IMG/VR virus record: IMGVR_UViG_3300030328_002692
Span: 27,134-91,133 of that record
Source of the DNA: a virus
Direction: 5' to 3' (one strand)
DNA: 64,000 bases
How positions within the stretch are numbered: position 1 is the first letter of the stretch; each line of letters begins with the position of its first letter. Position numbers and translations under genes: made by a program. Below are positions 3,380 through 63,356 of the stretch, piece after piece. The notes under the pieces are model-generated. The model saw only the letters and a list, made by a program, of their open reading frames with translations, had not been told where the DNA came from and ran no database searches.

Positions 3380-4329
3380 TTTTATTTACAGCAGATTGGC
3401 ACTTAAAGTTAGGTCAAAAGAATGTACCAATGGCATGGGCGTGTACTCGTTATAAATACTTTTTTGAAACATTACATGAAATAGAAGAAAGCATAGATAT
3501 GCACATTATTGGAGGGGATTTATTTGATAGAGTTCCTTCAATGGACGAACTCACACTTTATTTTGATTTTATCAAAGAAGTAGAAGTTCCTACTATTATC
3601 TATGATGGAAACCATGAAGCTACTAAAAAGTACAAAACTTTCTTTTCTAATTTAAAGAGAGCCACATCTGATGTAAACGACTTAGTCGAAATTGTAGATA
3701 CAACTACTGAGTATCCTTGGGGTACTATCCTTCCTTATGCAGATTTGCATAGAAAAGGTGGAATAGAATTCTGCAATAAAAACAAACCTCTATTTACTCA
3801 TGTGAGGGGAGAAATCCCACCTCATGTTACACCAGAGGTAGACCTAGATAGATTTAATGACTTTCCTGTAGTTTTTGCGGGTGACCTACATAGCCACTCC
3901 AACACGCAGAGAAATATAATCTATCCAGGAAGTCCTATGACTACTTCTTTTCATAGAGAGTTAGTCAAAACAGGATACCTTATGATTGATGAAGATAATG
4001 ATTTCAGTTGGGAATGGCATGAATTTGATTTGCCACAGCTTCTTAGAAAGACTGTGGACAATCCAGATGAAATGATACCAACAGAATATCATCACACAAT
4101 ATATGAGATAGAAGGGGACGTAGCTGATTTAGCAAATGTTAAAAACTCTGAACTTCTTGACAAAAAAGTTGTTAAAAGAAGTTCAGAAGCTACACTTAAT
4201 CTCAAAGATTTATCAATGGAAGAAGAACTGGTAGAGTACTTAAGTGCTATACTGAATTTAAATGATGAAAAAATAAAACAAATAATGGGAGTGTTTAATG
4301 ATTACTCTAAAAACGCTACGTTGGGATAA
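3376..4329 (+). CDS. SbcD/Mre11-type recombination nuclease subunit (T4 gp47-like)
   Basis: A 317-residue calcineurin-like metallophosphoesterase. Metal-binding motifs appear in order: DWHL near residue 7, GGDLFDR near 46, DGNHE near 76 and GDLHSH near 170. With its SbcC/gp46 partner, encoded immediately downstream, it should form the Mre11-Rad50-type complex that resects double-stranded ends for recombination-dependent replication. The start overlaps the peroxiredoxin stop, and the gene overlaps the next by 32 bases. All metal ligands expected by eye are present. Confidence 0.9.
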   Translation: MILFTADWHLKLGQKNVPMAWACTRYKYFFETLHEIEESIDMHIIGGDLFDRVPSMDELTLYFDFIKEVEVPTIIYDGNHEATKKYKTFFSNLKRATSDVNDLVEIVDTTTEYPWGTILPYADLHRKGGIEFCNKNKPLFTHVRGEIPPHVTPEVDLDRFNDFPVVFAGDLHSHSNTQRNIIYPGSPMTTSFHRELVKTGYLMIDEDNDFSWEWHEFDLPQLLRKTVDNPDEMIPTEYHHTIYEIEGDVADLANVKNSELLDKKVVKRSSEATLNLKDLSMEEELVEYLSAILNLNDEKIKQIMGVFNDYSKNATLG

Positions 4330-7559: not shown

Positions 7560-9309
7560 TTATAGCAAAGATAATTTGCTAACAGAATTTAGTAAGAAAA
7601 CTCTAAAAGATAGATATTTAGTAGGTGATGAACAATCACCGCAGGAAGCATTTGCACGGGCAGCTTCAGCATTTGCTGATGACCAAGACCATGCACAAAG
7701 AATTTATGATTACGCAAGTAATTTATGGTTTATGTTTGCTACTCCTGTACTATCAAATGGAGGCACTCAGCGTGGCCTACCAATTAGTTGTTTTCTTAAT
7801 TATGTAGATGACAGTAGAGAGGGTATTACTGGTCATTATACAGAGAATGCTTATCTATCATCAATGGGTGGTGGAATAGGCGGTAGCTGGAGTGATGTTC
7901 GTTCACAAGGAACAAAAACATCAAAAGGCTCAGAAAGTACAGGGGTTATTCCCTTTATGAAAGTAGTAGATGCGGAAATGCTTGCATTCTCGCAAGGTGT
8001 AACTCGTAGGGGTAGTTATGCATCTTATTTACATATGTCACACCCCGAAATAGAGGAATTTTTAGATGTTAGAAAACCAACTGGCGGAGATACTAATCGT
8101 AAGTGTATTAATTTACATCATGGTGTTGTTATCCCAGATAAGTTCATGGAAGTTATCCACAAGGCGACGAAAGAGCCAAACTTCAATGATGACTGGGAAC
8201 TTATTGACCCGCATAGTAAAGAAGTTAAAAAGGTAGTAAGTGCAAGAACACTTTGGGTAAAACTATTACAAAACAGAATGGAAACAGGAGAGCCTTATCT
8301 CATGTTTGAAGATGCTGTAGATGCAGATTTACCTGATTTTCAGAAAAAGAAAGGTTTAAAAGTAAATCATAGTAATCTTTGTTCTGAAATTACACTTGCA
8401 ACAAATGAAGAAAGGACAGCAGTATGTTGTTTATCTAGTGTAAATCTGGAGTATTTTGATGAATGGTCAAAAGTCCCAGCATTTATACCCGATTTAATAA
8501 GATTCTTAGATAATGTATTAACATATTTTATAGAAAATGCTCCAAATGAACTAGAAAGAGCTAGATATAGCGCTTCTAGGGAAAGGAGTATAGGTTTGGG
8601 AGCTATGGGATTTCATGCTTATTTGCAAAAGAATAACATGGCTTTTGAAGGAATGTGGGCAAGTGCTAAAAATCATTTGATGTTTAAGCATATAAAAGAC
8701 TACGCTCAAACAGAAACACAAAGACTTGCAGCAGAAAGAGGAGCCTGCCCAGATGATGATTCTTGTACAGTAAGAAATGCACATCTATTGGCAATAGCTC
8801 CAAATGCAAGTAGTTCTATTATATGTGGTAATACATCTCCAAGTATAGAGCCTTTTAGAGCAAATGCTTATAATCAAAAGACTAAGTCTGGTTCGTATTT
8901 GCAGAAGAATAAATTTCTTGAAAAAGTATTAGAAGAATATGGACAAAATACAGATAATATATGGTCTAGTATTATTTCTAATAAAGGTAGTGTTCAGCAT
9001 TTAGAATTCTTATCTGCAGATGAAAAAGAAATATTTAAAACAGCTGTAGAAATAAATCAGGCATGGGTAGTAGAACACGCTAGTGAGAGGCAGGAGTATA
9101 TTTGTCAATCACAGAGTGTTAATCTTTTCTTCCCACCTGATGTAAATAAAGGCGACCTACACAATGTGCATATGCTAGCGTGGGCTAAAAATATGAAAAC
9201 ACTTTATTATTTACGAAGTGAGGCTATTAGTCGTGCTGATAATGTATCTAATGAAGTAAAAAGAGAGATAATCTTTGAACAATCAGATTGTCTAAGTTGT
9301 GAGGGTTAA
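7543..9309 (+). CDS. nrdA: Ribonucleoside-diphosphate reductase, large (alpha) subunit
   Basis: A 588-residue class I ribonucleotide reductase catalytic subunit that converts NDPs to dNDPs. It begins directly at the catalytic barrel and lacks an N-terminal ATP-cone, so allosteric on/off control by dATP is probably missing. The active-site Cys in PISCF, the NLCSEI segment, the TLYYLRSE pair of radical-transfer tyrosines and a C-terminal redox tail ending DCLSCEG are all visible. GGAG precedes the start. It is directly followed by nrdB; the pair supplies deoxynucleotides for phage replication in a nutrient-poor habitat. Confidence 0.95.
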   Translation: MKLEIDYSKDNLLTEFSKKTLKDRYLVGDEQSPQEAFARAASAFADDQDHAQRIYDYASNLWFMFATPVLSNGGTQRGLPISCFLNYVDDSREGITGHYTENAYLSSMGGGIGGSWSDVRSQGTKTSKGSESTGVIPFMKVVDAEMLAFSQGVTRRGSYASYLHMSHPEIEEFLDVRKPTGGDTNRKCINLHHGVVIPDKFMEVIHKATKEPNFNDDWELIDPHSKEVKKVVSARTLWVKLLQNRMETGEPYLMFEDAVDADLPDFQKKKGLKVNHSNLCSEITLATNEERTAVCCLSSVNLEYFDEWSKVPAFIPDLIRFLDNVLTYFIENAPNELERARYSASRERSIGLGAMGFHAYLQKNNMAFEGMWASAKNHLMFKHIKDYAQTETQRLAAERGACPDDDSCTVRNAHLLAIAPNASSSIICGNTSPSIEPFRANAYNQKTKSGSYLQKNKFLEKVLEEYGQNTDNIWSSIISNKGSVQHLEFLSADEKEIFKTAVEINQAWVVEHASERQEYICQSQSVNLFFPPDVNKGDLHNVHMLAWAKNMKTLYYLRSEAISRADNVSNEVKREIIFEQSDCLSCEG

Positions 9310-10269
9310 ATGAATTTATTAGAAGAAAGAGATTATTACAAACCTTTTAACTATCCGTGGGCATTTGAGTTTTATAAAAAACAACAACAAATGCATTGGC
9401 TTCCTGATGAAGTTCCACTTCAAGATGATATAAAGGATTATAAAGAAAAACTTACACCTGAAAATAGAGCATTGGTAGATAATATCTTCCGATTCTTTAC
9501 ACAAGCAGATGTAGATGTATGTTGCGGATATGCTCAGCATTATCTTCCAACATTCAAACAACCAGAAGTAAGAATGATGCTAGTTAGTTTTGCTGCTATG
9601 GAAGCAGTGCACCAAGAAGCATACTCCCTACTTCTAGAGACTCTAGGTAAATCGGACGAAGAGTATCAGATGTTTACCCAGATTCAAGCAATGTCAGATA
9701 AACATGACTATCTCACAGATTTTAATATGAGAAATGAGCATGAAATGGCAAAAACAATGGCAGTTTATAGTGGATTTACAGAAGGAGTACAACTATTTAG
9801 TAGTTTTGCTATCCTTCTTAATCTGCCTAGACATAATCTTATGAAAGGCATGGGACAAATAGTAACATGGTCTATTAGGGACGAGTCCCTTCATGTAGAG
9901 GGAATGTCAAAACTGTTTAGAACGTTTATACAAGAAAGACCACATTTGTGGACTGACAAGTTAAAATATGAAGTATACTGTGCTGCAGAACGAGTAGTAG
10001 AACTAGAAGATAGTTTTATTGATGTTTGTTTTGATGGTGCAGATATTCCTGATTTGACTGGAAAAGAAGTGAAAGAATATATAAGATATATCGCAGACCG
10101 TAGACTATTAGGTCTAGGTATGAAAGCTATATTCCATAGTACTGATAATCCATTACCATGGCTGGATCAACAGTTAAATGCTGTGGAACACGCGAACTTC
10201 TTTGAAAACCGTGCTACTGAATATGCCAAGAGTAGTACACAAGGTAATTGGCAAGATATATTTAAATAG
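9310..10269 (+). CDS. nrdB: Ribonucleoside-diphosphate reductase, small (beta) subunit
   Basis: A 319-residue ferritin-like radical-generating subunit. Diiron ligands can be placed in TQADVDV, in MEAVHQEAY (Glu and His, with the radical Tyr four residues after His as in the class Ia family), in SGFTEGVQ, and in RDESLHVEG (Glu and His). The radical tyrosine is retained, so this looks like a conventional tyrosyl-radical enzyme. The start codon abuts the nrdA stop with no gap, which implies balanced co-translation. Confidence 0.95.
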   Translation: MNLLEERDYYKPFNYPWAFEFYKKQQQMHWLPDEVPLQDDIKDYKEKLTPENRALVDNIFRFFTQADVDVCCGYAQHYLPTFKQPEVRMMLVSFAAMEAVHQEAYSLLLETLGKSDEEYQMFTQIQAMSDKHDYLTDFNMRNEHEMAKTMAVYSGFTEGVQLFSSFAILLNLPRHNLMKGMGQIVTWSIRDESLHVEGMSKLFRTFIQERPHLWTDKLKYEVYCAAERVVELEDSFIDVCFDGADIPDLTGKEVKEYIRYIADRRLLGLGMKAIFHSTDNPLPWLDQQLNAVEHANFFENRATEYAKSSTQGNWQDIFK

Positions 10270-10278
10270 GAGAAAAAA

Positions 10279-10542
10279 ATGGCAACAGAAGTAACCAATA
10301 ACGAGCCTGTATTAATGTTTAACGACAAAAAATACATAATCTCGGAACTGCATGACGATGCAAAGGTTATAGTAGCGTTATTACAAGGATTAGAGCAAGA
10401 CTTAGCTCAAGCAAAGATTCAGCATGATAGACTATTATTAGCCAAAGAAGGATACACTAGTAGACTCGAGCAAGTCATAGACAAAGACCCAAATGAGGTC
10501 GAAGCAGAGCCTGTGGTAGATACACCAACAGAAGACGGTTAA
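10279..10542 (+). CDS. Small coiled-coil protein of unknown function
   Basis: An 87-residue protein: a short beta-like N-terminus (MFNDKKYIISEL), a long amphipathic helix of about 45 residues rich in Leu, Gln and Lys, and an acidic Pro/Glu-rich tail. Similar small proteins are common in marine phages, without an assigned role. AGGAG lies just upstream. It is the last rightward gene before the terminator. Confidence 0.75.
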   Translation: MATEVTNNEPVLMFNDKKYIISELHDDAKVIVALLQGLEQDLAQAKIQHDRLLLAKEGYTSRLEQVIDKDPNEVEAEPVVDTPTEDG

Positions 10543-10555
10543 AGGCTTATAAAAC

Positions 10556-10582
10556 GAAAAACCCGCCTAGTGCGGGTTTTTT
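10556..10582. terminator. Bidirectional rho-independent terminator
   Basis: A 6-bp GC stem, ACCCGC (10561-10566) and GCGGGT (10572-10577), closes a CTAGT loop. It is preceded by a run of A and followed by a run of T, so it works on both strands. It lies exactly where the rightward early operon and the leftward fibre operon converge. Confidence 0.9.
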
Positions 10583-10598
10583 ATTGTCTATTGCGTGT

Positions 10599-10766
10599 TT
10601 AAGTATCGCTATAGTCCATTTCTTTTAGTACAGTTTCTTTTACTAAATTAGTATGTCCGTCTGAAGAAGAATTAGCCTCTTCTTTTATAAGTTTTACTGT
10701 CCATTTATCTCCAGACTTTACCCATCTAAGTATTTTTCCTGCTTCTATATTTGCCATTCCTTCCAT
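10599..10766 (-). CDS. Short hypothetical protein (55 aa)
   Basis: A 55-residue product starting MEGMANIEAGKIL with a short Trp- and Lys-containing beta-like stretch (RWVKSGDKWTVKLI). The ORF is preceded by a strong AGGAG ribosome site 7 bases before the ATG and begins 13 bases after the end of the last fibre gene, so it is probably the final gene of the leftward operon. No function can be assigned. Confidence 0.65.
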   Translation of the reverse strand: MEGMANIEAGKILRWVKSGDKWTVKLIKEEANSSSDGHTNLVKETVLKEMDYSDT

Positions 10767-10779
10767 TTGTGTCTCCTAA

Positions 10780-13700
10780 TTAAAAGTTGAAGTGTGCGTT
10801 CTCTTGGTGAGTTGTTACCATTCTGTTTGCTTCACCTGAATGTTGTGAATCCATCCACATAATATTATATTGACTCCATGAACCGGTGTCCAAGTTTGTT
10901 ATATTTGTTGCTAAAAGATAAAATTGTATTCTATCTCCAGCAGTTACATCAAAACAAGCTGAATTATGAATAGAGTTCCATTGACTGTTTGTATTTGTTA
11001 TTAATTGATATGCCATTACTGAATTATTTGCATCATTTGCAGGTGAACGGTATATACGAGATGTGGCATAACTAGTTGCACCAGTGGTTATTATATCTTG
11101 GTTCATATCGACCCATACTTTTCCATCTCGTTTTATGTGTATACCATAATTTCCAGTTGTATCTATTTCAAATATATTTGGATTCATATATCCACCAGCG
11201 GCATGTTGTCTTAAATCTAAAAAGCCTGAATTATTAGTAGTAATCGCACTACTATTATCTAGCCTAAACATAGCACATTCTACAGGTCCATATCCAGGCC
11301 CACCTGGATTGACAAGTTGCATATCTTCTGCCTCTGCCTCTAGTTTTAATCTTCTCCACCCTATTAATGTGTCGTGACCACTTGAACCACCCTTAAACTC
11401 AAATCTAATATAAATGTCTCCACTAAATACTCCTCCGATAGACATTTGTCCTATAGTACTAAAGTTTAGGGTTGCGCTTTGGTCTAATGAACCTGCTCCA
11501 AAAGTTCCAGTAGCTGCGTTTGTCCAGTTTAAATCATCAAAAGAATAATCTATATTCATAGTTCTTGTTGTGCCATCAGCTGAATTTCCACACTCATGAT
11601 TAAGAGCCATTGTTGTTGCTTTACTTAAAGAAACTTTAAATTTAATATATGAATTAGTTGTACTTGCTCCCTTACCTGCACCAACATAATATAATCCGTT
11701 ACTATAAGAGCCAACATCAAAATTAACATTATATGAACCAAAGCAAGCTTCTTTTAATGCCTTTTTAATATTAGCATTGACTTCAGAGCCATGACCGCCC
11801 ATACCATTAAACTCAAATGGAGTATAATGAGTAGACCTAATACCAACACTTGAAGCTGTTCTAACTACATCAGCGTCACTACTTGTAGCAGCACCACCTG
11901 TAATACGCATTCTTTCTGTGGAAGAGCCGCCAGTAGGTTGAGTACTAAAAACTAATCTTGCATTATCTGTTGCACCATCTGTTATTGCCGATATTGTTGC
12001 CAAGTCTGTATCAGTATTATTACCAAACATGATTCTACCAATACCTTGGTCGTTGTTTGAGTCATTTCTTCTTATTTGTATTCCATGACCGCCACCTGAA
12101 GCAGGGGTTTCTATTTGGAATAAATCATCAACATGACTAGCGGTATCTCCAATAATAACTTTACCTGAACTATCGATCCGCATTCTTTCAGTGCCACCAG
12201 TTGCAAGAGCCATAAATGCTGTAGTACCAAGTGCATCTAAATATTGCCCACCAGTTGCATTTTGATATAGCTCAAATCTACTATTACCTGTTCTATGGGC
12301 TTCGAGTATACTACCTGATCCACCTGCACTATCAATGGTTAGCATATAACCCATAGCACTTCCTGCATGATTTGTGCTTGTTGCAATTCCAACTTTGCCA
12401 CCATCATCAATCCTCATTCTTTCAGTTGGTGCTGAATCAGTTACAACATCTCTTGTAAGAAAAATAAGTTCTCCTTTTGTATCTCCTGCTGTGCTTGTTT
12501 CTTGAAAACCTATATAAGCTGGTGAGTGAGTGTTGGTAGCATCTGTATAACCAAAACCAATCATAAAATGACCAGTACTACCATCTGGTCCAAAATCATC
12601 ACTACCAAGTTGTAGATAAGTATTGGCTGCTGTTATAGATGTTGGTGCATTTTGACCTGCTGCATTAGAAATTGTGAGTTTACCTAGGGGTGCTGTATTT
12701 CCAATTCCAACCTTACCTGCACTTGTAATACGCACTCTTTCTGAGCCATTAACAGTTGCAGCTAAATGTGAACTTCCTGCATTAATACTTATGCTTGATC
12801 CTGAATAAGCTGTAATTGCATCAGTAAATAAAGTACCATTTTGAACGTAAGAGTTACCCACAACATGCAATGGTGCTGAAGGACTCGAAGTTCCTATACC
12901 AACTCTATCTGTGCTTGCATCAACATATAACATATAATCACTACCTGTGCTATATACTGCAAAGTCTTGATTATTATTTTCTTGATTTAATCTTACTAAA
13001 CTATTAGTAATTTGTAATCTTGTACTATTACCTGTGACAAAGCTTTGTGTATCTGTATCAGAAAAACGAAAATAGTTATCTACATCCCCTGAATGCATTA
13101 TTTTTGAAGGTATTGTTAAATCACTAGAAAAAGTTGCCGCACCCCCAGCTGACATATCAAGAACTAAAGCATTTACACCCGAACCACCATCATTGCCTCT
13201 AAATATTATGTCTTTGTCTTGAACACTAGCTTTTATTTGGAAATCAGAACTAGAGTTTTCAAAAACCCCAATTTCAGTACCACCATCTTTAAATCTAATA
13301 TCACCACCATCTGCGTCAAGAATAATATCTCCAGCACTGTCAAGTATCATGCTTGATGTAGCATTTGAAATCGTATTACTAGAAATTGCAATGTTGCCTG
13401 AAGTTAAATTTCCTGCAAGTGCAGTTGCTGTCAAAGTACCAGTAACTGTCACACCACCTGTTACTGTTTCTAATTTTTTACTATTATCATAATATAATTC
13501 GACTGCACCATTCTCTATGGCTGATATCATTTGTTCGTTATAAGCTGCATTTTTAAGGTAAATTGCATTTGCAGCTACTACTAAATTTCCTGTTCCATTG
13601 TCTATAATATAAGAGTTGCTACCATCATGTGTTAGTAAAAAGTCTGAACTATCTCCTAATTTAATATAGTCATTATCTCCCATTACTAAATGAGAGGTTA

Positions 13701-51209: not shown

Positions 51210-52511
51210 TTAAAAAGTATGGGCTGATGTCTCAAAGGTGTACAGCGCATAACGTAAAGCATCTGACATATGAGATGCCATATTATGTTTAGGTTTTTCT
51301 CTGAGTAAATTAGGATTAGGGTCCCATTGGTACTGGTCAACTGCCGACAATGTTTGTTGACATTTTTGGTCTATTATGAGAATGTCATTATCAATAATTC
51401 CTGCTGCATGTCCAATTCCATCTAGAACTGATTTTTTCGCATTGATAGTAGTAATATCATAATTTTGTGCTAGGTCGAATCTGGTTTGTTGAGCTGCGGA
51501 ATCAATATAGATGTAGTCTATGACATATTTATCTATCATTTTGCGTATTTCTATAGCATGCTGTTCAGTAGTTCTTTCAGCGTCCATGTATTCATCTATT
51601 AGATAATATTTTTGTTCGTCCCAATCATATGCTATAACACATAAAGCTGTTGGGTCTTTGTATCCTACGTCTAATCCCGCAAATACATCCATATTGCTAG
51701 TATCTAACTGACTTAAATCGGCAACACATTCTTCAAAATTAAAACTCCAAACCTGTCCTTCATAAGTATTAAAATCAGCAAGATATTCCTGAGCAAACTC
51801 TGCCTGAGACATTGCTTTTTTAGCTTCTCTTATATCTTCATCACTAAATCTAGGATTTTCATGATAAGTTGCTTTTATTGATGCCCAATCGTGAAATTCA
51901 TCACTAAAACCTCTGTGATAAAAGTCTGCAAACCAATTATTTCTTCCCCTTGGCGTTGAAATAAATACAGCTTTACTGTTTTCTTTATCTAGGGTAGGTC
52001 TGAGTGCGACATTAAAAGCGTCTTTGCCGTCTGCTAAAGCTGCCTCATCAAAGATGATTAAATCATAAGACCTACCAACAGTAGAGTCTACCTGATTTAC
52101 TGAACCCATTCTAATAGTGGAACCATTAGAGAGTTCTATAACTTTATCCTTTGCGTTATCTCTTACCACCTCCAAGTCAAAGTGCTTAATAAGCTGTCTT
52201 TGTAAATCAAAAGAGATTTGGGATAAAGAATAGTTCGGTGACATAATTAATATATGAGAGCCAGGCACGAGTGACACAAGCTGTCCAATTACATTTGTGA
52301 TATAAGTTTTGCCCTGTCGCCTAGAAATGGCGGCACACACGAATCTATATTTTGGGTTGTTGACTGCGTTTATAAGTGCAGTCTGTGAAGTATTAGGTGT
52401 GATACCTAATAAGTTCATATATTCTGATATTGGTAACTTGATAAACCTTTCGGTTGCATCAAAGTTCATCAACTCAGAACTTTCTATATCTGTTCTACTA
52501 ACATCTAACAT
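51210..52511 (-). CDS. terL: Terminase large subunit
   Basis: A 433-residue packaging motor and nuclease. The ATPase part has an adenine-binding SQTALI near residue 42, Walker A SRRQGKT (63-69), Walker B LIIFDEAAL (near 150) and coupling motif ISTPRG. The RNase-H-like nuclease carries Asp residues in AGLDVGYKDPT, in YIYIDSAAQ, and in HMSDALRYA near the C-terminus. All catalytic residues appear intact. It is separated from TerS by the 10-kb region that contains the curli-like genes and spanins. Confidence 0.95.
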   Translation of the reverse strand: MLDVSRTDIESSELMNFDATERFIKLPISEYMNLLGITPNTSQTALINAVNNPKYRFVCAAISRRQGKTYITNVIGQLVSLVPGSHILIMSPNYSLSQISFDLQRQLIKHFDLEVVRDNAKDKVIELSNGSTIRMGSVNQVDSTVGRSYDLIIFDEAALADGKDAFNVALRPTLDKENSKAVFISTPRGRNNWFADFYHRGFSDEFHDWASIKATYHENPRFSDEDIREAKKAMSQAEFAQEYLADFNTYEGQVWSFNFEECVADLSQLDTSNMDVFAGLDVGYKDPTALCVIAYDWDEQKYYLIDEYMDAERTTEQHAIEIRKMIDKYVIDYIYIDSAAQQTRFDLAQNYDITTINAKKSVLDGIGHAAGIIDNDILIIDQKCQQTLSAVDQYQWDPNPNLLREKPKHNMASHMSDALRYALYTFETSAHTF

Positions 52512-53478: not shown

Positions 53479-53625
53479 TTATTTCTCCCATTTTCCGAGA
53501 GGACATTTAGTCCTTCTCAACTTTGCCTTTAAAGGTATAAAACATTTGCATTTTTTACAAACCTTTAAAGAGGTGTAGTGCTCACAAGTACTACATATAA
53601 TAAGCCTAGTCTTGTGCTGGCTCAT
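53479..53625 (-). CDS. Cysteine-rich zinc-ribbon-like microprotein (48 aa)
   Basis: A 48-residue protein with CSTCEHY (Cys 11 and 14), then CKKCKC (Cys 23, 26, 28), and KCPLGKW near the end. The spacing suggests at least one zinc site of four cysteines. It overlaps the end of the o-spanin gene out of frame and ends 2 bases before the next start. Proteins ending CP(L/I)GKW are common in marine phages, without known function. Confidence 0.7.
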   Translation of the reverse strand: MSQHKTRLIICSTCEHYTSLKVCKKCKCFIPLKAKLRRTKCPLGKWEK

Positions 53626-53998
53626 TCTTGACTGTAGTAACTTCTCTATAGTACACTACAACATCTTTTAGTTCAGTGATATATCTTTTTAACTCTTGCA
53701 TATTGTATGCCATCATTTCGTAATCTGGTATGCTTAATGCTAAAAAGACTAATTCGCCTTCCTGTTCTTCTATGATTTTTAACTGCTCTTCCCAATTGTC
53801 AGGAGTTACAGTTAACCATTTCACATCTTTTAGGTCAATTTCTCTAGGCATAACAGGTTGGATAATATTTCTATCCATCGGTTTTGCTGTGACCTCTATC
53901 TGTTTAGTTGGAATTAGGCTGCAACTGCAAACCATCATCGAGATTATCAACGGTATCGCTAAGCTTTTCGATGTCTTCCATAATGTGTTTTGTTCCAT
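53606..53998 (-). CDS. Outer-membrane spanin subunit, lipoprotein (Rz1-like)
   Basis: A 130-residue protein with an N-terminal hydrophobic segment ending MMVCSC, a lipobox-like sequence with the lipidated Cys probably at 26 (or 24). The mature part is Pro-containing then helical. It overlaps the preceding i-spanin gene by 95 bases in another frame, as Rz/Rz1 pairs do. It should bridge to the inner-membrane spanin and disrupt the outer membrane at the end of infection. Confidence 0.7.
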   Translation of the reverse strand: MEQNTLWKTSKSLAIPLIISMMVCSCSLIPTKQIEVTAKPMDRNIIQPVMPREIDLKDVKWLTVTPDNWEEQLKIIEEQEGELVFLALSIPDYEMMAYNMQELKRYITELKDVVVYYREVTTVKNEPAQD

Positions 53999-54299
53999 TG
54001 TTTATTTTCCTTTGCATTTCTACAGGGTCAGATAGAATTTTTGCAGTTAATTCATAATTTTGAATAAATTGTGTATATCTGTTCAACTCTCTCTGTGCTG
54101 CTTGACTTTTCTTAGTCATATTTTGAAGTTGTTCTGTCTGTAGAGTAAAATCTGCTTCTAGTGCAGCGATTGCTTCTTCTTGGGTAGCAATTGCTCCCTC
54201 TAACTGTAAGTTATTCGCTGTTAATGTTTGATTTTGTTGGTATAAGTAGTAACTTCCAAGTGAAAGTACTAAAATTATGCCTATAAATAATTGATTCAT
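53904..54299 (-). CDS. Inner-membrane spanin subunit (Rz-like)
   Basis: A 131-residue protein with one N-terminal membrane segment (FIGIILVLSLGSYYLY) and a long periplasmic coiled coil (AIAALEADFTLQTEQLQ), the layout of an i-spanin. It is followed by the overlapping lipoprotein gene. Together they form the periplasm-spanning complex for lysis of Gram-negative hosts. No endolysin is found in the window. Confidence 0.75.
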   Translation of the reverse strand: MNQLFIGIILVLSLGSYYLYQQNQTLTANNLQLEGAIATQEEAIAALEADFTLQTEQLQNMTKKSQAAQRELNRYTQFIQNYELTAKILSDPVEMQRKINNGTKHIMEDIEKLSDTVDNLDDGLQLQPNSN

Positions 54300-54707: not shown

Positions 54708-54882
54708 TGACTTTCTCTAGCCCTACTTCCGCTAGCTCCTTAGTCATGTATCCGCACTCTCCGCCTTTCCAAGCAAAGAACCACATACCATCTCTTTCGA
54801 AAATTTCTCCGTCATTAGTAGGTGCTTTCATAGTACTCTTTTTAGGTGCTTTCATATCTTTTTTTGAATAGTCATCCATCAT
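54694..54882 (-). CDS. Hypothetical protein next to iscU (62 aa)
   Basis: A 62-residue protein with a Lys/Met-rich start and an aromatic core (FERDGMWFFAWKGGECGY). It overlaps the iscU stop by 4 bases, so it is co-translated with it. No motif recognised. Confidence 0.6.
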   Translation of the reverse strand: MMDDYSKKDMKAPKKSTMKAPTNDGEIFERDGMWFFAWKGGECGYMTKELAEVGLEKVSGNS

Positions 54883-55304
54883 ATCGGGCCTCCATTGTGT
54901 TGCCTTTTTGCCTTTTTAGACTCCCAGTGTTCTATTGCTTTCTTTATGCCTGATTCAGCTAATACTGAGCAATGCAATTTGATGGGAGGTAATTCTAGAA
55001 CATCTGCTATGTCCTTATCTTTAATTTCTTTTGCTTCTTCTATTGTTCTTCCTTTTAACATTTCTACAAACATTGTAGAAGAAGCGATTGCTGAACCACA
55101 ACCATAAGTTTTAAACTTAACATCTAGTATTCTATCGTTATCGTCTAACTTTAAGTCTAGTTTCATTACGTCGCCACAAGATGGTGCTCCTACCATTCCT
55201 GTTGCTACATTTGGGTCTGAGGGGTCAAATCTACCCACTGAGTGTGCGGCAGGGTTGTCTAAGACGCTTTCGAATCTTTCAACAACCTTGCGCGAGTATG
55301 CCAT
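54879..55304 (-). CDS. iscU: Iron-sulfur cluster assembly scaffold IscU
   Basis: A 141-residue protein strikingly like bacterial IscU. The three ligand cysteines Cys43 (GAPSCGD), Cys69 (TYGCGSAIASS) and Cys112 (LHCS) are all present, together with the conserved Asp45, His111 and the HscA-binding LPPIK (105-109). It should assemble [2Fe-2S] and [4Fe-4S] clusters with the host cysteine desulfurase and chaperones. No other Isc gene is nearby. It lies between an outer-membrane protein and small phage genes, transcribed from P4. Acquisition from a proteobacterial host is likely. Confidence 0.95.
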   Translation of the reverse strand: MAYSRKVVERFESVLDNPAAHSVGRFDPSDPNVATGMVGAPSCGDVMKLDLKLDDNDRILDVKFKTYGCGSAIASSTMFVEMLKGRTIEEAKEIKDKDIADVLELPPIKLHCSVLAESGIKKAIEHWESKKAKRQHNGGPI

Positions 55305-55913
55305 CTAGAAATGGAAATATAATCCTAACGAAGCGTTGTCCATGAATTGGTCTTGTCTTGCATCGTCTAACATGTAGAAACGTGCTTCCAAGTTATCGCC
55401 GAGTTTTTTACTCATACCGAGAGCCCAAAAATCATTGTCCTCATCAAACATTCCGTAATCAACCCAAACGTCCATAAACTTGACGAAAGGTAATCTTAAC
55501 TGCAATTCCATAAAATCTTTATCTGAATCTTCTGTATCTACATAGTAGGAAAATGAGACATTTTTTAAATGTACTTTTGCAAACATTTCTTCGACATCAT
55601 CGTAGCCTTTATCCCAGTTGTATTGGATAACACCCACATCTACTGAAAACTTGTCAGATACCATAAGTTCGTATCCTAAGAACAAGTCCATTTCATATGT
55701 AGCTTCGTCTCCAAAATCAACTTCTGAAGCCCAAACACCACCATATAGGCCACCGTTACTAACCTTTAGCTCACCTTGCATAGCTGCATTACCTGAAGAT
55801 TGGCTTACACCTCTCCACATATAATCTGAACTATACCCTAAATAACCATCAACACCTGCAAATGCGGGTAAAGTTACTAATGTGAGTAATAATGCTAATA
55901 TTTTATTTTTCAT
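55305..55913 (-). CDS. Outer-membrane protein, TIGR02001-like beta barrel
   Basis: A 202-residue protein with a cleaved signal peptide ending AFAG and a long series of alternating amphipathic beta strands, ending in a C-terminal Phe (LGLYFHF) that directs outer-membrane insertion. The opening LGYSSDYMWRGVSQS, then GGVWASEVDFG, is the signature of the TIGR02001 family of proteobacterial proteins. A phage-coded porin-like protein could change the receptor surface of the infected cell or serve superinfection exclusion (inference). Its stop lies next to the iscU start. Confidence 0.85.
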   Translation of the reverse strand: MKNKILALLLTLVTLPAFAGVDGYLGYSSDYMWRGVSQSSGNAAMQGELKVSNGGLYGGVWASEVDFGDEATYEMDLFLGYELMVSDKFSVDVGVIQYNWDKGYDDVEEMFAKVHLKNVSFSYYVDTEDSDKDFMELQLRLPFVKFMDVWVDYGMFDEDNDFWALGMSKKLGDNLEARFYMLDDARQDQFMDNASLGLYFHF

Positions 55914-56226: not shown

Positions 56227-58008
56227 TTATTTTTGTATGGTGTATATTTTGACTGGTTCGGATTTGCCTTTTACCGTTACCTCATCTAAAAACTCGTAAT
56301 CAAAACCGTCTACCAAACTATATTCTGATATGATTAAGTCGGTGTCATAGGTCTTGCATGAGCTTTCTAACCTTGCTGCCAGATTGACAGCATCGCCAAG
56401 AACACTATAATCGAAACGGCTGCTGGAGCCAAAATTGCCCACCACACACGGGCCAGTATTGATTCCAGCTCCTGTATTAATTTGGTCAAGGCCTTCCTCT
56501 GCAAGTTGTTCATTTAACTCTCCTAATGCTGTACGCATTTCGAGTACGCATTCTGTAGCTTTCCTTTCTTGTTCTTCAACATCAAGAGGTGCATTCCAGA
56601 AAGCCATGATGCAGTCCCCCATGTACTTATCGATTGTACCACCGTGCCTAAGAATTATCTCGGTCTGGTTGTCTAAAAATCGATTAATAAGAAGTGTAAG
56701 TCCTTGCGGATTCTTTTGGTATTTTTCAGAAATTGGTGTAAATCCCCGAATGTCAGAAAATAGAAAAGTTAGTCGTTTTGTCTCCCCACCCAATCTAAGT
56801 AATGATGGGTCTTTTTGTAATTTTTTAACTAAGTCTGGGCTTACGTAGGTGCCAAATTGTTTTTTAATTTCCATTCTCATGAAATACTGCTGGATAAAAT
56901 TCCTGAAAGTTACGATAGAAAAGAAAAGAAATCCGACAACCATAGTGCCGGAAACGTCAAGTAAGTAGGAAGATTGGTACGCATACCAGCTACCATACAT
57001 AAGTCCGCCCATGCTAGTTAAAAATATTGGCGCCGAAAGGTAGACATTAGAAGCCGCTATTAGTAGTATGACTATTAATAGTAGTGCGGCTCCTAACTCT
57101 GCCAAGTCCGCCCACGCGGGTTGAACAGGGCTAGTTCCGTTTATTAAATGGTGTAAAACATTTGCCTGTACCTCATGTGGGTAAACAGCGCCATTAGCAG
57201 TAGGAACTGGATTAACAACTCCTTCTGCTGTAACCCCTGCTATTACAAAGGAGGCGCCTTCCATAGGCTCTCGGAGATACTCCGCTGCAGACTGCCTGTG
57301 AAACTTTATATTTGATGTTATCCAAACTCTTGAACGAGAGTCTGTTTTTATAAGTGGAAAATTGGGAATTCTTAGCCACTCAATACCTGTGTCTTTTGTG
57401 TTTATTTGATAACTAGGGTCGCCTACACCTACCCTTAACATTTCTAACGCAAAAGAAGGAAATAATTTACCGCCCGAACTAACGACGAGAGGAAGACGCC
57501 TTACGACGCCGTCTATTTCTGGACTTGAGTTTATTAAGCCTACGCCTTCTGCGTTGTGCTGTTGTCGTAAAATTCCTGGATACTGATATAGCCATTGATG
57601 TGGATCACCTCCTAGTTGTGCAGTACCTACATGAGGTCCTACTTGCGTTGCTTGGTTAGAAGCAGTATATGCCAATACAGCAGGATAAATATCTAGTATA
57701 TCTTCTAAGTATTCATCTTCTACTGTGCCTCGAATATCAGGGTCTGGCATTAATACTGTAATACCAGCAGTTCCCTGCGTTCTTGAAATTAAATGTGAAT
57801 ATAAACTTCTTGGTAGAGGATAACCACCGTATGCCTCTACTATTTCTTCATCAAAGTCTACTAGTAATATCATATTGTCTTGCACAGGCTCGCTAGTCGA
57901 CATGAGCCAATCAAATGTTTTGAGTTCTAATATTTGTAAGGGTGTGGGATTCCAGACTAGAAAAGCCAGGAGTAGTGCCCCAATTAAGGGGTTATAGAGT
58001 TTCTTCAT
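56227..58008 (-). CDS. Transmembrane adenylate cyclase with CHASE2 sensor domain
   Basis: A 593-residue protein with a CHASE2 periplasmic sensor (about residues 20-300; TFDWLMS, LLVDFDEEIVEAYGGYPLPR), three membrane helices (about 305-375) and a class III cyclase domain. Catalytic features look complete: SDIRGFT with the first metal Asp, DKYMGD with the Lys and second Asp, and SVLGDAVNLAARLES with the transition-state Asn and Arg. cAMP synthesis is predicted because the Lys in DKYMGD is the usual adenine-specifying residue. It ends the operon that carries the curli-like genes. CHASE2-cyclases next to FecR-domain proteins are known in bacteria, so this pair was probably captured together. Confidence 0.9.
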   Translation of the reverse strand: MKKLYNPLIGALLLAFLVWNPTPLQILELKTFDWLMSTSEPVQDNMILLVDFDEEIVEAYGGYPLPRSLYSHLISRTQGTAGITVLMPDPDIRGTVEDEYLEDILDIYPAVLAYTASNQATQVGPHVGTAQLGGDPHQWLYQYPGILRQQHNAEGVGLINSSPEIDGVVRRLPLVVSSGGKLFPSFALEMLRVGVGDPSYQINTKDTGIEWLRIPNFPLIKTDSRSRVWITSNIKFHRQSAAEYLREPMEGASFVIAGVTAEGVVNPVPTANGAVYPHEVQANVLHHLINGTSPVQPAWADLAELGAALLLIVILLIAASNVYLSAPIFLTSMGGLMYGSWYAYQSSYLLDVSGTMVVGFLFFSIVTFRNFIQQYFMRMEIKKQFGTYVSPDLVKKLQKDPSLLRLGGETKRLTFLFSDIRGFTPISEKYQKNPQGLTLLINRFLDNQTEIILRHGGTIDKYMGDCIMAFWNAPLDVEEQERKATECVLEMRTALGELNEQLAEEGLDQINTGAGINTGPCVVGNFGSSSRFDYSVLGDAVNLAARLESSCKTYDTDLIISEYSLVDGFDYEFLDEVTVKGKSEPVKIYTIQK

Positions 58009-58210: not shown

Positions 58211-59011
58211 TCATTCTTGTGTTATTGTTATGGTTTTTGTACAATTTGATGTACAGTTAAAAGTTGCAGTATATGACTGATTAGTTGCTCCTTTTTGAGT
58301 AACATTTAAATTATAATCATCTGTGTAAAATTTCATATTTGCTGTATGAGCTCCTGCTCCGTATTGTGTTAAGTTTACAGTCGTATTGTCTGCGTCGTTA
58401 TAAAAAAAGATATCGGCATCTTTGTTTCCAGAACCGTATTGGGTTACTGTGGCGGAGTTATTGTCCGCATTAGGGTAGTTATAAATGTAAGTATTATGTT
58501 CGCCAGTCCCATACTGATTAATAGTGAAATCAGAATCGTCACTGAAAGTGAATATTTTAGCGTACTTATCATTCCCTGTTTGAGTGATTGAATAAGCATT
58601 ATCGTCTCCTGAGCCTAATTGCTCTGCGTGGTTATCGTTTCCGGTTTGTGTTATAGTAGAAGTATTATCATCTTCGTCTTGGTCAAGCCATACAAAGTTA
58701 TCATCTCCTGTTACAGTAATAGTATAAACATTATCCATATTATTTGACCATACAGTATAAAGTCTAGTATTATTACTATTTCCTATAACTGTAGTATTTA
58801 ATGTAGCACTACCACAAGTATGTGAAACATAATTAGTACCTGGCATAGAGCCGCTAGAGCCTGCTCCACATAGTATATATCCTTCATTACCGTTACCAAC
58901 TTGTTTGGCTGTAATGCTAGTGCCAGTTCCTTTAGTAGTTATTGTGAGACTATTATCTCCTGCAAAACTAAGGGGACTGATTAATAATAATAATGTTATC
59001 ACCCGCACCAT
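58211..59011 (-). CDS. Secreted curlin-repeat protein (CsgA/CsgB-like) 2
   Basis: A 266-residue protein with a signal peptide ending LSFAG and at least six repeats of 22-25 residues carrying the strand-turn motif TQTGND or TQYGSG, plus polar Asn/Asp residues: the curlin-repeat pattern that forms amyloid beta-solenoids. Cysteines occur in pairs near both ends (ILCGAG, HTCGS, FNCTSNC). It overlaps the FecR gene by 44 bases. It should be exported through CsgG. A nucleator or fibre subunit role cannot be told apart. Confidence 0.8.
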   Translation of the reverse strand: MVRVITLLLLISPLSFAGDNSLTITTKGTGTSITAKQVGNGNEGYILCGAGSSGSMPGTNYVSHTCGSATLNTTVIGNSNNTRLYTVWSNNMDNVYTITVTGDDNFVWLDQDEDDNTSTITQTGNDNHAEQLGSGDDNAYSITQTGNDKYAKIFTFSDDSDFTINQYGTGEHNTYIYNYPNADNNSATVTQYGSGNKDADIFFYNDADNTTVNLTQYGAGAHTANMKFYTDDYNLNVTQKGATNQSYTATFNCTSNCTKTITITQE

Positions 59012-60071
59012 TTATTTCTACCTCCATTATTACTCCTGCATTATTTATATATAAATAAGTGCCTGCATTTATATCTATTCCTATATCATAAGTATTTACG
59101 CCTGTGTGTACAAAATATATAAGTCCATCTTCTACAAAAGTGTAAGTCTGGTATACAGGGTCAAAACCTCCTATTATACCTGCTAACTCTACTCCTTGTA
59201 GTATAGACTGTGATTGTTTTGATTTCTTGCTTGTAGTTTCAACTAGTGCTAGTAAATCAACTAGGAATTCTATTCCTAATAAATCAATGTCTAATCTTGT
59301 GACTTCTTCTGATTCTTCATCACATTCTTCTACTAGTGCGTCGCAGTCTAAGTCTGGTGCATCTTCAAAGAAATCTTTGTCTAATTCAGCAGTCGGTGAA
59401 GTACCTTGTTGTTGTTCTTCTACTGCTTGTTCGACTTCTGCTGGTCTACTGACAATTAACATATTGTCTATTAAACCAAGAGTCATATTAGCAAGGGTTA
59501 CAGCTTGTGTTGGGGGCTGTTCCCAGGCTGATACCATTGTTGCTTGGAATGGTTCATTTAATATTTCTACTCCTGAAGCTGTGGTTACTGTTATCTCTCC
59601 CGAAGAAGTACCATCTTTATTTGGTAGTAGTATAACTAGGCTTCTTCCTAGCTCATCTACAGTAGCCGTAAAATCCGTTCCACGAATACCTATTGTAGCT
59701 GTAGGAGTCTTGATAGAGATGTTCTCTTTATCAATCATTCCAAGTTTGCCCGTAATGAAACGAGCTGTTCCTGATGCCATATTAAAAGCCATTTCACTTT
59801 TACTAGGGTCAGGGTCAAAAATGAATTTATCGATTATAACTTTAGAATGTTCTGTAAGTTTAAGGACTGAATCGTCAATAAACTGTATTGCCATTCTACC
59901 GTTACCTGTTCGGACATCATCAAATGAGTAGATATCTGAGTCTAGTTCCGCTGTGAGAGTTTCACTAGAGTCTTGTCTAGTAATCTCTCCGTTTCCCTTT
60001 AACTCAGATATCCCTCCAATTTCGGACGCGCTAATTGTTCCTACGAAAAGTATTAACAGCCAGAAGCGCAT
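58968..60071 (-). CDS. FecR-domain surface/periplasmic protein
   Basis: A 367-residue protein with a signal peptide (FWLLILFVGTISAS) and a FecR domain (about residues 25-160): DVRTGNGRMAIQF, then TPTATIGIRGTDFTATVDE. This is followed by an acidic region with a Cys-pair (LDCDALVEECDE) and a C-terminal beta domain. Such domains occur in bacterial surface proteins, adhesins and sensors. It sits between two curlin-repeat genes, overlapping both, so it probably belongs to the assembled fibre or its anchor. Confidence 0.8.
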   Translation of the reverse strand: MRFWLLILFVGTISASEIGGISELKGNGEITRQDSSETLTAELDSDIYSFDDVRTGNGRMAIQFIDDSVLKLTEHSKVIIDKFIFDPDPSKSEMAFNMASGTARFITGKLGMIDKENISIKTPTATIGIRGTDFTATVDELGRSLVILLPNKDGTSSGEITVTTASGVEILNEPFQATMVSAWEQPPTQAVTLANMTLGLIDNMLIVSRPAEVEQAVEEQQQGTSPTAELDKDFFEDAPDLDCDALVEECDEESEEVTRLDIDLLGIEFLVDLLALVETTSKKSKQSQSILQGVELAGIIGGFDPVYQTYTFVEDGLIYFVHTGVNTYDIGIDINAGTYLYINNAGVIMEVEINGAGDNIIIINQSP

Positions 60072-60730
60072 TGATCGACGTCTATCGTTCCATTTGAAGT
60101 TGTGGATATTAAGTTCACAACATTTGTAGAAGCAGTATCAGTTTGGTCAATAGTTATAGTATTTGAGCCTCCTGTTATTGAAGCTGTTATACTGTGGTCA
60201 GCTGAACCAGTCTGTGTAGTAGTAATATCATTACTATTTCCACTAACAGTCCAGTTATTAATACAGCCAACTACTTCACAAGTACCTGTGTACTCATTAG
60301 AAGTACCAGTAATTACAAAATCCTGATTACCTCCAGTAGCTGTTGAAGCTGCACCTTGTGTCCAAGTGAATATATTACTGTCGCCAGTTGCAGCGTAGTC
60401 AAAGTCTGATTGAGCTACGTCGCCTGTTCCACCAACAGTAAAAGTTCCTGTATTACTATCCCCAGTTACTATCCAATCCCAACTCGATGAGTTACCCTGT
60501 AATATACTGGCTAGAAAAGAGTTAGTATCTCCAATCTGGTCAATATCTACAGTCATGGAAGTACCTGATAAGGTTACTCTGCTTGATGAAGTACCAACTT
60601 TGTTAGTTGCTCCAATTTGATCAATAGTAAGTGTTAAACCTGTACCAGTTTGAGTGATATAAATATCATTATTTCCTGCAAATGCTCCAAAAGATAGACA
60701 TATCGCGAATAGTCCTAGTATCTTTTTCAT
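60053..60730 (-). CDS. Secreted curlin-repeat protein (CsgA/CsgB-like) 1
   Basis: A 225-residue protein with a signal peptide ending AFAG, then repeats with the units TQTGTG, DQIGAT, DQIGDTN and TQTGSAD spaced about 20-27 residues, as in curlin repeats of the form QxGxxN. Cys-pairs occur at GTCEVVGC and at the very end (DQCASGC). It is directly downstream of csgG with a good AGAGGAA ribosome site. It may be the main amyloid subunit. The repeats are less regular than in E. coli CsgA. Confidence 0.8.
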   Translation of the reverse strand: MKKILGLFAICLSFGAFAGNNDIYITQTGTGLTLTIDQIGATNKVGTSSSRVTLSGTSMTVDIDQIGDTNSFLASILQGNSSSWDWIVTGDSNTGTFTVGGTGDVAQSDFDYAATGDSNIFTWTQGAASTATGGNQDFVITGTSNEYTGTCEVVGCINNWTVSGNSNDITTTQTGSADHSITASITGGSNTITIDQTDTASTNVVNLISTTSNGTIDVDQCASGC

Positions 60731-60732
60731 TT

Positions 60733-61560
60733 TTATTCCTCTTTTAGTTTGGAATAGTTAAAATCCCAAACCTCTTTTTCGAGTCCTTCTATAACCAGTC
60801 CGTAAACGGCAGCTTCTATAGCTGCTCGGACGGCTATATTGGTCGACTCGTTTTCCGTATACCCACTTTCAATTTCGACTAATTCTGTACCCATTTCTAT
60901 GAATCTGAATACGTCGCCTCCACTTGCTGTGGATAATACAGTTTTTGTAGCCGTAACATTTAAGAGTACTTCGCCAGTTTGCACTAGCACAGCTCTAAGG
61001 ACGACGGTTACTTTGTCCTCGCGGTATTGGTTCTTCATACCTATTCCTAAGTATCGAGCTCCATTACCACCTGTCTTTAAATTTGTATCGTATGCTACAA
61101 TTCCACCTTCCATAATCATTCCAGCATATAGTAATGGTTTTAAAATTGTTTTTCCGTCTGCATTCTTATTGTAGCTTTCGTAAGTACTTCTTACAAGTTG
61201 TCTTTCTTTTGTTAAATTATCTAATCCGCCTCTTTCTACCACTACGAACCAATTTCCTTTACCGGCATCGCGAAGTGCTTCCACTAACATATGGTCTGCT
61301 CCTTGAGTTACCGCAGTACTAAAACTAGCGATATTATCGCTGGACTTTCTTTGACCTGTTAGGTCGGAAAAATTATAAACAGCGACTACTGTTTTTCGAT
61401 TTGGATAAGGTAAGTTAAGTAGTTGTTGGGTTGCGCTAGGTTCAATGACTGGACCTTTGATACACATTACTCCGTCCATGCAATTGCCGTGACTTTGGGG
61501 CATGCCAATGGAGGCACAGCCCTGAAGAAACATAAGCGCAACTATTAGGTATTTACTCAC
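60733..61560 (-). CDS. csgG: Curli secretion channel CsgG (type VIII secretion)
   Basis: A 275-residue homologue of E. coli CsgG along nearly its whole length. A lipobox LQGC puts the lipidated Cys at 15. Core segments VYNFSDLTGQ, FSTAVTQGADHMLV, WFVVVERGGLDNL, EGGIVAYDTN, GGNGARYLGIG, and FRFIEMGTELVEIESGYT match the E. coli protein. It should form a nine-subunit outer-membrane channel. In the constriction loop Phe80 corresponds to Phe56 of mature E. coli CsgG, but Tyr51 and Asn55 appear replaced by Ser, with a one-residue insertion. Two further cysteines (27, 33) are phage-specific. Operon: csgF, csgG, curlin. Confidence 0.95.
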   Translation of the reverse strand: MSKYLIVALMFLQGCASIGMPQSHGNCMDGVMCIKGPVIEPSATQQLLNLPYPNRKTVVAVYNFSDLTGQRKSSDNIASFSTAVTQGADHMLVEALRDAGKGNWFVVVERGGLDNLTKERQLVRSTYESYNKNADGKTILKPLLYAGMIMEGGIVAYDTNLKTGGNGARYLGIGMKNQYREDKVTVVLRAVLVQTGEVLLNVTATKTVLSTASGGDVFRFIEMGTELVEIESGYTENESTNIAVRAAIEAAVYGLVIEGLEKEVWDFNYSKLKEE

Positions 61561-62038
61561 AATTGGTCACACAACCGCCGAAACTACCAACTGGTATTGT
61601 TATAGTGGTTCTTGAGATTTCTACTCCATCTGCCATCTCTATAATTGTTAAGGTTATTGTTATACCATTGTTTAACCATTGGATAATATTACCCTCTAGT
61701 TCTATCTCTCCATAAACGGGGTTTTCTATTGAAGCAGGATTGTCATAGTTAAATAAGGATTCCGATATATCTTTCGCGAGTGTGGAATATATCCTTGACT
61801 CTAAGTTTCTGAGGAACTTAGCGAGTGTTGTATTCTCTGCTTCTCTTTGAGCGTCTTCTAATGCTTCTTGTGCATCTGCTCTGATTTTCTCTTTACGAGT
61901 TCTTTCTTGCTCATCAATTGTTAAATAGTGAGCAGATTGATTAATCCCACTGAAACTGGGATTACCGAATTTATGTACTAGCTCCGTCGCGTTTGCTGTT
62001 GTCGCTAGTGTTAGTAGTATTATTAAGCTTTTTTTCAT
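61553..62038 (-). CDS. csgF: Curli assembly factor CsgF
   Basis: A 161-residue protein with a signal peptide (about 1-17) and a mature start TELVHKFGNPSFSGIN that matches the CsgG-plugging N-terminus of CsgF (F-x-N-P-x-F-x-G). A helical middle and a beta C-terminal domain follow; two C-terminal Cys (GGCVTNCE) are extra compared with E. coli. It is longer than E. coli CsgF (138 residues) and overlaps csgG by 8 bases. It should sit in the CsgG channel and present the nucleator at the surface. Confidence 0.9.
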   Translation of the reverse strand: MKKSLIILLTLATTANATELVHKFGNPSFSGINQSAHYLTIDEQERTRKEKIRADAQEALEDAQREAENTTLAKFLRNLESRIYSTLAKDISESLFNYDNPASIENPVYGEIELEGNIIQWLNNGITITLTIIEMADGVEISRTTITIPVGSFGGCVTNCE

Positions 62039-62264
62039 TTTCTTTCATCTCTAAAACCGTGTTTACTTTTTCTTGTAAACGGATCATGTCTTGGTCGAGT
62101 AACCTAAGCTGATCTATCAATCGTATGATTGTTATTTTCATTTCATCTATAGCGGGGTCTACGTCCTTGAGGATAGTTTGGTATACAAAGTATACAAAAT
62201 ACCCCATACCGACAGCCATCACAATCGGAAATCCAAATTGGGAAATTAAATCTACAATTTCCAT
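61971..62264 (-). CDS. Small membrane/coiled-coil protein, paralogue of the 62.5 kb gene
   Basis: A 97-residue protein with an N-terminal membrane helix (FPIVMAVGMGYFVYFVYQ) and a charged helix (IIRLIDQLRLLDQDMIRLQEK). The N-terminus MEIVDLISQFGFP is related to MEIFNLIAEVGAP of the gene at 62.5 kb, so the two are paralogues. It overlaps csgF by 68 bases. Related small proteins are common in marine phages; holin or membrane-tether roles are possible. Confidence 0.65.
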   Translation of the reverse strand: MEIVDLISQFGFPIVMAVGMGYFVYFVYQTILKDVDPAIDEMKITIIRLIDQLRLLDQDMIRLQEKVNTVLEMKENEKKLNNTTNTSDNSKRDGAST

Positions 62265-62528
62265 TTAACTGAATCTACTTTGTATATATTTAAAAATACT
62301 ATAAATTGTTAAACCGTAAAAAGCTAATACGGTCATGGGTAAAGCTATATAAGCTAGTTCCCATGGTGATAGGAATAGTATTTCCCATGTAAAATTTATA
62401 GCAGCTTCTGCATCTCCTGTAGGTTGTTGCATAGTACCGACTTCTGTTACAATGTCGAGCTCATAATCAACAAGAAACTCAGTCCACTCTTCTTCAGTAA
62501 AACAAATAGTACTAGTCTCTTCTTGCAT
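62265..62528 (-). CDS. Single-span membrane protein (87 aa)
   Basis: An 87-residue protein with an acidic N-terminal domain (EEEWTEFLVDYELD) and a C-terminal membrane segment (LAYIALPMTVLAFYGLTIYS). It overlaps the upstream gene by 17 bases and abuts the downstream one. Function unknown. Confidence 0.65.
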   Translation of the reverse strand: MQEETSTICFTEEEWTEFLVDYELDIVTEVGTMQQPTGDAEAAINFTWEILFLSPWELAYIALPMTVLAFYGLTIYSIFKYIQSRFS

Positions 62529-62805
62529 CTATAGTTCCATCTTCCACAAAGTTTTCTGCTCTCGCAATTCTTTGTAAGTCAGGTGCTAGTCCGAGTGCTG
62601 CGGACACACTAGTGTCAATACGGATTATATCATTATTCATGACTTTCCCTCTTGTTATTAGCATTTCGGACATTCCCTTAACCGTCTTAATCTCTGTAAC
62701 GAGATTTCCCATAATTTGTTTTATAATGATAAATATAAATAGTCCCATAACTAGTGCTCCCGCTATGGGTGCTCCTACTTCTGCTATGAGATTAAATATT
62801 TCCAT
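62512..62805 (-). CDS. Small membrane protein (97 aa), paralogue of the 62.0 kb gene
   Basis: A 97-residue protein with an N-terminal membrane helix (GALVMGLFIFIIIKQIMG) and a charged helical C-terminus. Shares the MEI(F/V)xLI start and membrane layout with the gene two positions downstream. Possible holin-like or envelope protein of the late operon. Confidence 0.65.
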   Translation of the reverse strand: MEIFNLIAEVGAPIAGALVMGLFIFIIIKQIMGNLVTEIKTVKGMSEMLITRGKVMNNDIIRIDTSVSAALGLAPDLQRIARAENFVEDGTIDARRD

Positions 62806-62894: not shown

Positions 62895-63356
62895 TCATTG
62901 GTCTTTCATTAATTTCTTGATCAGTTCTCCGTAATTCCCTTGACCAAATGGCAGCCCACTATTATCTTGAATGTTTACTTGCGTTTTGACTGTCTGTGCC
63001 TTCGCTTTCTCCATTTCTGTTTGAGCTTTAATTTCTTCGATACGCATTTTGTGAGCCATCTGAAGTAAATCTGCCATGTCTTTGTTAGTATAAATCTGAG
63101 TCTCATCTGACTCCTCTAGTTTCTTTTCGATGAGCATATCTAAGGTTTCCGATATCTTAAATCTGTTTCGATATCCAGTATCTAGAAAGACCGTGTCTAT
63201 ATACTGTTTCACTTCCCTTTTATTTAGGGCCTCGCTAACCTGATTTTCGCTCACACCAAGTTTTGCGCAAACTACCGGGATACTTCCGTGTTCCAGATAA
63301 CTGTTTGCGATCTCCAGTCCTTCAGGACTCATTTTGGTTGCTATTTCTTTACTCAT
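62895..63356 (-). CDS. terS: Terminase small subunit
   Basis: A 153-residue DNA-binding subunit. An N-terminal helix-turn-helix (SYLEHGSIPVVCAKLGVSEN, about residues 19-38) is followed by REVKQYIDTVFLDTGYRNR, characteristic of phage TerS proteins, then a helical oligomerisation region rich in Glu/Lys and a short tail. It recognises the packaging site. The ATG is 7 bases downstream of the -10 box of promoter P5, so its mRNA may be leaderless. It starts the operon that contains the curli-like genes. Confidence 0.85.
   Translation of the reverse strand: MSKEIATKMSPEGLEIANSYLEHGSIPVVCAKLGVSENQVSEALNKREVKQYIDTVFLDTGYRNRFKISETLDMLIEKKLEESDETQIYTNKDMADLLQMAHKMRIEEIKAQTEMEKAKAQTVKTQVNIQDNSGLPFGQGNYGELIKKLMKDQ

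Follow-up and report, generated by a model that had tools for sequence, protein, structure and literature searches.

A marine T5-like phage with a curli/type VIII secretion-like module of possible use at or after release

The csgBAC and csgDEFG operons of Escherichia coli share CsgG, CsgF, and the curlin repeats with the phage locus described here, but they additionally encode CsgC, CsgD, and CsgE and contain neither a FecR-domain protein nor an adenylate cyclase. Curli genes in marine phages, the earlier reporting of which had been suspected in a preliminary note on this DNA (hereafter the earlier note), have indeed been described in three papers (PMC7029224, PMC9599517, and PMC9004378), whose carriers, in the portions of text available, are myophages and podophages. 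Wittmers et al. (PMC9599517) set out the order csgF-csgG-csgA/B-FecR-csgA/B-adenylate cyclase without CsgC/D/E, and the available part of their account places a histidine kinase, sometimes two, always ahead of csgF. The other two papers concern the Pelagibacter phage HTVC008M with the pelagimyophage cluster (PMC7029224) and the Methylophilales phage Melnitz, which was said by Buchholz et al. (PMC9004378) to lack csgA/csgB and in whose infected cells they saw no clumping.

The locus examined here lies in a window of 64,000 nucleotides, the whole stretch of DNA that was analysed (positions 27,134 to 91,133 of the IMG/VR virus record IMGVR_UViG_3300030328_002692). Genes for CsgF, CsgG, a curlin-repeat protein, a FecR-domain protein, and a second curlin-repeat protein follow one another on the minus strand of a contiguous phage genome, in the gene order that the available text of Wittmers et al. 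gives for HTVC023P-type podophage and myophage modules, with CsgC/D/E missing in both. The features, in window coordinates, are as follows:

62895..63356, minus strand: terminase small subunit (TerS; phrog_3802)
62512..62805, minus strand: TM1, small membrane protein of 97 aa with a hydrophobic N-terminal segment and, after it, a charged and probably helical part (phrog_18771)
62265..62528, minus strand: 87-aa protein between TM1 and TM2 with a C-terminal hydrophobic segment, assigned to no family
61971..62264, minus strand: TM2, a 97-aa paralogue of TM1 (phrog_18771)
61553..62038, minus strand: CsgF (Pfam E=2.8e-12)
60733..61560, minus strand: CsgG outer-membrane pore lipoprotein with an LQGC lipobox (Pfam E=1.3e-56)
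60053..60730, minus strand: curlin-like protein 1, with a signal peptide and a predicted stack of short strands
58968..60071, minus strand: exported FecR-domain protein (Pfam FecR E=3.1e-12)
58211..59011, minus strand: curlin-repeat protein 2 (Pfam Curlin_rpt E=1.8e-12)
56227..58008, minus strand: CHASE2 and class III adenylate cyclase with intact catalytic motifs FSDIRGFT, DKYMGDC, and GDAVNLAARL
53904..54299, minus strand: inner-membrane spanin, Rz-like (phrog_739 E=4e-9)
53606..53998, minus strand: outer-membrane spanin, Rz1-like, overlapping the inner-membrane spanin (phrog_812 E=3e-11)
51210..52511, minus strand: terminase large subunit (TerL), T5-like

The coordinates, strand, and order that the earlier note gave for the five central open reading frames were all reproduced. 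The overlaps it described measure 8, 19, and 44 nt, beside a single gap of 2 nt. Its delimitation fell short in overlooking the upstream membrane pair and the downstream cyclase: the conserved unit exceeds five genes, with the membrane pair 5' of csgF and the cyclase 3' of the second curlin gene. Small genes, together with a phage IscU (Fe-S scaffold; 54879-55304) and a TorF-type porin (55305-55913), separate the cyclase from the spanins. An IscU gene also accompanies the module in ten viral loci that lack a match to a T5-like terminase (for example L069, L334, and L353).

The curli/type VIII secretion-like identity proposed for the module is supported by Pfam and by matches to solved protein chains. 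The likeness to E. coli CsgG amounts to 40% identity over 257 aligned residues, and profile searches retrieved the solved E. coli chains, at E=1e-70 with the viral CsgG-family profile and E=3e-12 with that of CsgF. The F-x-N-P-x-F-x-G plug motif is kept in CsgF as FGNPSFSG; at the CsgG constriction, the Tyr51 and Asn55 positions are not conserved and Phe56 is mostly kept. As had been noted before, the remaining Csg proteins are absent: neither CsgE, CsgC, nor the LuxR/GerE domain expected of CsgD was matched across the 91-kb contig. Since CsgE is cited as non-essential in PMC7029224 and alphaproteobacterial modules devoid of CsgC/D/E appear in the available text of Wittmers et al., these three proteins are regarded as accessory to, and not defining of, curli/type VIII secretion.

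With regard to the putative fibre subunits, the second curlin-repeat protein lies above the Pfam cut-off and the first falls just below it (18.3 vs 20.7 bits, E=0.0022). In its AlphaFold2 model, the first consists of short strands stacked in a regular array (pLDDT 86.6, pTM 0.81), and the four G[DSNT][SGD]N turns of its sequence compare with a shuffle mean of 0.28, none of 2000 shuffles reaching four; the predicted fold and the turn count together support a protein of curlin type. A Foldseek search of this model against the PDB returned nothing at E<=0.001, the CsgA fibril 8enq appearing only at E=1.4.

The FecR-domain protein begins with a signal-peptide-like segment, which is followed by a FecR fold, a low-confidence linker, and a C-terminal all-beta domain. 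Its model is partly confident (pTM 0.49), and Foldseek relates it to the PupR signalling domain (E=5e-5) and, in one match of 63 columns (rmsd 1.2, E=0.014), to the cell-surface anchoring domain 5ix9. Searches of the protein found no N-terminal anti-sigma domain and no second Pfam domain, the FecR domain had no match by sequence in the PDB, and the contig, searched for a partner ECF sigma factor, holds one sub-threshold match to sigma region 4 (17.7 vs 25.7 bits). From the partly confident model and the single 5ix9 match, we hypothesise that the protein is most likely an envelope adaptor or anchor and not an iron regulator.

Judged by its sequence, the carrier is a marine, distant T5-like siphophage. 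TerL is up to 50% identical to that of T5-like Demerecviridae, Vibrio phage vB_ValS_X1 and Pectobacterium phage My1 share its order of TerL, portal, and protease/capsid, the capsid (33%) and a partial tape-measure match are both T5-like, and the tail genes are of the siphophage type. One 687-aa open reading frame at 47250-49313 matches both the prohead protease and the major capsid families, which are encoded by separate genes in T5-like relatives. In My1, an open reading frame 34% identical to the TerS of the window abuts TerL, whereas in the window the two terminase genes are 10.4 kb apart with the module between them. Parts of the module were found at 16 of the 17 testable loci with a close TerL (viral contigs with at least 4.5 kb upstream), and the whole stretch that begins with TerS, includes the module, and ends with TerL is repeated in four contigs assembled independently from other metagenomes (L002, L005, L503, and L519). 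Because the published carriers are myophages and podophages, as far as the available text of the three papers goes, the T5-like carrier is a third phage type and a further lineage, lying outside both families of Wittmers et al.

The company kept by csgG was surveyed in 147 viral loci, picked by csgG motifs and counted wherever the flank sufficed, the loci not being independent of one another. In the testable loci, CsgF was always present (132/132), as were FecR (122/122) and one or more curlin genes (131/131); two or more curlins were found in 100/107 and the cyclase in 83/84, with TM1 in 107/108 and TM2 in 102/121. As csgF, curlin, and FecR genes are never missing beside viral csgG in these testable loci, it is unlikely that CsgG works as a pore alone. 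A csgG locus 53% identical also occurs on L342 and L343, viral contigs with lengths of 216,820 and 339,794 bases that may come from a very large phage. One record (L084, OR851715) is an unannotated 1.5-kb "Salmonella phage" entry, marked unverified, which encodes a marine-type CsgG and is likely a contaminant or a mislabelled fragment.

All module genes, including both membrane proteins, were matched by profile in the HTVC008M/pelagimyophage cluster, the CsgG of HTVC008M being 49% identical to that of the window, and the same gene set was matched in Melnitz. The GenBank record of Melnitz (L083, MZ577097) annotates two curlin-repeat proteins, FecR, and the cyclase, in conflict with the statement in PMC9004378 that csgA/csgB are lacking. 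The upstream genes differ in name: one or two "histidine kinase" genes in the available account of Wittmers et al., and proteins of about 97 aa without a kinase match in the window. Members of the TM1-TM2 family span about 80-133 aa, and no kinase domain was detected in 15 of them; going by position and number, the membrane pair may well be, and probably is, what the available part of that account calls histidine kinases. A hydrophobic N-terminus and a lysis-gene setting in relatives are both present, and the holin family phrog_4898 is matched weakly by TM2 only (E=4e-4), a context and a profile on which a possible holin role of the pair would rest. Across 50,697 phage records, relatives of the pair occur only in six records of cultured T4-like phages, all of them csgG carriers, and a scan of 26 bacterial loci with CsgF/CsgG detected none. 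The idea that the pair is exclusive to the module holds in isolate phages and is refuted by contigs L293 and L203/L256, which carry the pair without the module.

A lysis-gene setting is seen in relatives. In many podophages and siphophages among them, the genes run in the order holin-like, TM1, TM2, csgF, csgG, curlin, FecR, curlin, cyclase, i-spanin, o-spanin, endolysin, and in 23 of 78 loci an i-spanin lies within 400 nt downstream of the final gene of the module. Lysis-gene matches numbered 116 in 671 kb of module flank (54/147 loci) vs none in 384 kb around peptide deformylase, a phage gene serving as the control, a contrast which is inflated because the profiles were trained on loci found near the module and in which the loci are not independent. 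In the present phage, the overlapping spanin pair lies in the window; far from the module, at 9664-11314 of the contig and outside the window, lie an endolysin gene (phrog_7, E=2e-64) and a gene for a holin-like membrane protein with two segments. The available portion of Wittmers et al. mentions no lysis genes near the module, and the word "holin" is absent from its main text.

A module-free counterpart of such a cassette is found in L293, where holin-like, TM1, and TM2 genes are followed by spanins and an endolysin (phrog_7, E=3e-58). Positions 1815-3086 of L293 match 2142-3438 of the module-bearing contig L027, and 3364-4474 match 9071-10221; in the interval from TM2 to the i-spanin the two no longer match, L027 having 5.6 kb of module there and L293 having 278 bases, which marks a place where the module was either inserted or cleanly lost. 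The T4-like carriers HTVC008M and Melnitz differ in that their module adjoins genes for ssb and a helicase loader and no spanin was matched near it, and late timing is for this reason not universal.

A chromosomal bacterial operon resembling the phage arrangement is found in two Caulobacteraceae contigs with bacterial flanks (L093 and L094), which encode csgF-csgG-curlin-curlin-FecR-CHASE2 cyclase and thus share the core genes, FecR, and the cyclase, without the membrane pair. The presence of FecR and the cyclase in this operon contradicts the statement, in the available text of Wittmers et al., that neither occurs within bacterial curli operons; both were missing in 19 other CsgF-bearing Caulobacteraceae genomes of the sample. 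In the CsgG tree, the Caulobacteraceae rows nest among those of phages, but an AU test does not reject phage monophyly (p=0.137), and transfer in either direction would fit. Most genome-contig hits labelled Bacteroidota, Planctomycetota, or Synechococcus include the phage-type pair of membrane genes and look like phage contigs placed in MAGs. Metagenome-assembled contigs assigned to many bacterial phyla (L087-L092, L095-L098, L100, L103, L104, and L110) likewise combine the phage-type module with the pair and are probably phage contigs binned with bacteria.

The balance leans towards a phage-encoded curli/type VIII module that would place amyloid on the cell surface late in infection, with a benefit likeliest at or after release. 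CsgG as the outer-membrane pore and CsgF as its cap would export the two curlin-like proteins, which would then assemble into amyloid coating the infected cell, and the cyclase might provide a cAMP signal that responds to the envelope. The placement of the module among lysis genes in siphophage and podophage relatives suggests that the fibres act late; this timing, like the proposed gain at release, is read solely from gene position in those relatives. The likeliest gain would be that cells and debris are held together or shielded around the burst. Against this reading stand the lack of clumping that Buchholz et al. observed in Melnitz-infected cells, the absence of CsgE and CsgC, and, in the present phage, the genes that separate the cyclase from the spanins and the remote position of the endolysin and holin-like gene.

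A bolder version, possible albeit doubtful, is that the module and the membrane pair form a late release apparatus, amyloid export having been recruited into lysis cassettes such that holin-like proteins, the CsgG-CsgF pore, and the fibres would jointly set the timing or the form of lysis and hold progeny or sibling cells together. A serious rival, if on present evidence an unlikely one, is that the amyloid mainly blocks superinfection by masking receptors during infection. It invokes the same gene products, has been proposed for podophage carriers in the available text of Wittmers et al., and is compatible with the earlier expression that a position beside replication genes in T4-like carriers would allow, but the lysis-gene placement in siphophage and podophage relatives speaks for later action. 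Distinctly less probable is the proposal, made for Melnitz (PMC9004378), that CsgG, together with CsgF, acts as a pore for lysis which weakens or depolarises the envelope, the fibres being irrelevant; a weakening of the envelope by the pore was also raised in the earlier note. The absence of CsgE, the altered constriction, and the lysis genes as neighbours would suit such a pore, but the unfailing presence of csgF, curlin, and FecR genes beside csgG in the testable viral loci, the two curlin-repeat genes annotated in Melnitz itself, and dedicated spanins in the same gene block all count against it. Uptake of large nutrients or cofactors through an open pore during infection, as put forward in PMC7029224 and the available part of PMC9599517, leaves the invariant CsgF, curlin, and FecR genes unexplained and is very improbable. 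An assembly chimera or bacterial contamination can practically be dismissed, as the TerS-module-TerL synteny of the independent contigs speaks against a chimeric join and cultured phages also carry the module.

Amyloid secretion by phages has thus been published yet left unexplained. To the known carriers, this study adds a third lineage, in whose clade the module is near-universal, the finding that pore and fibre genes always go together within the surveyed loci, a bacterial operon that includes FecR and the cyclase, and a site of insertion or loss inside a lysis cassette. For the proposed surface amyloid, the question of what purpose the fibres would serve is thereby sharpened into tests of their timing and of their part in release.
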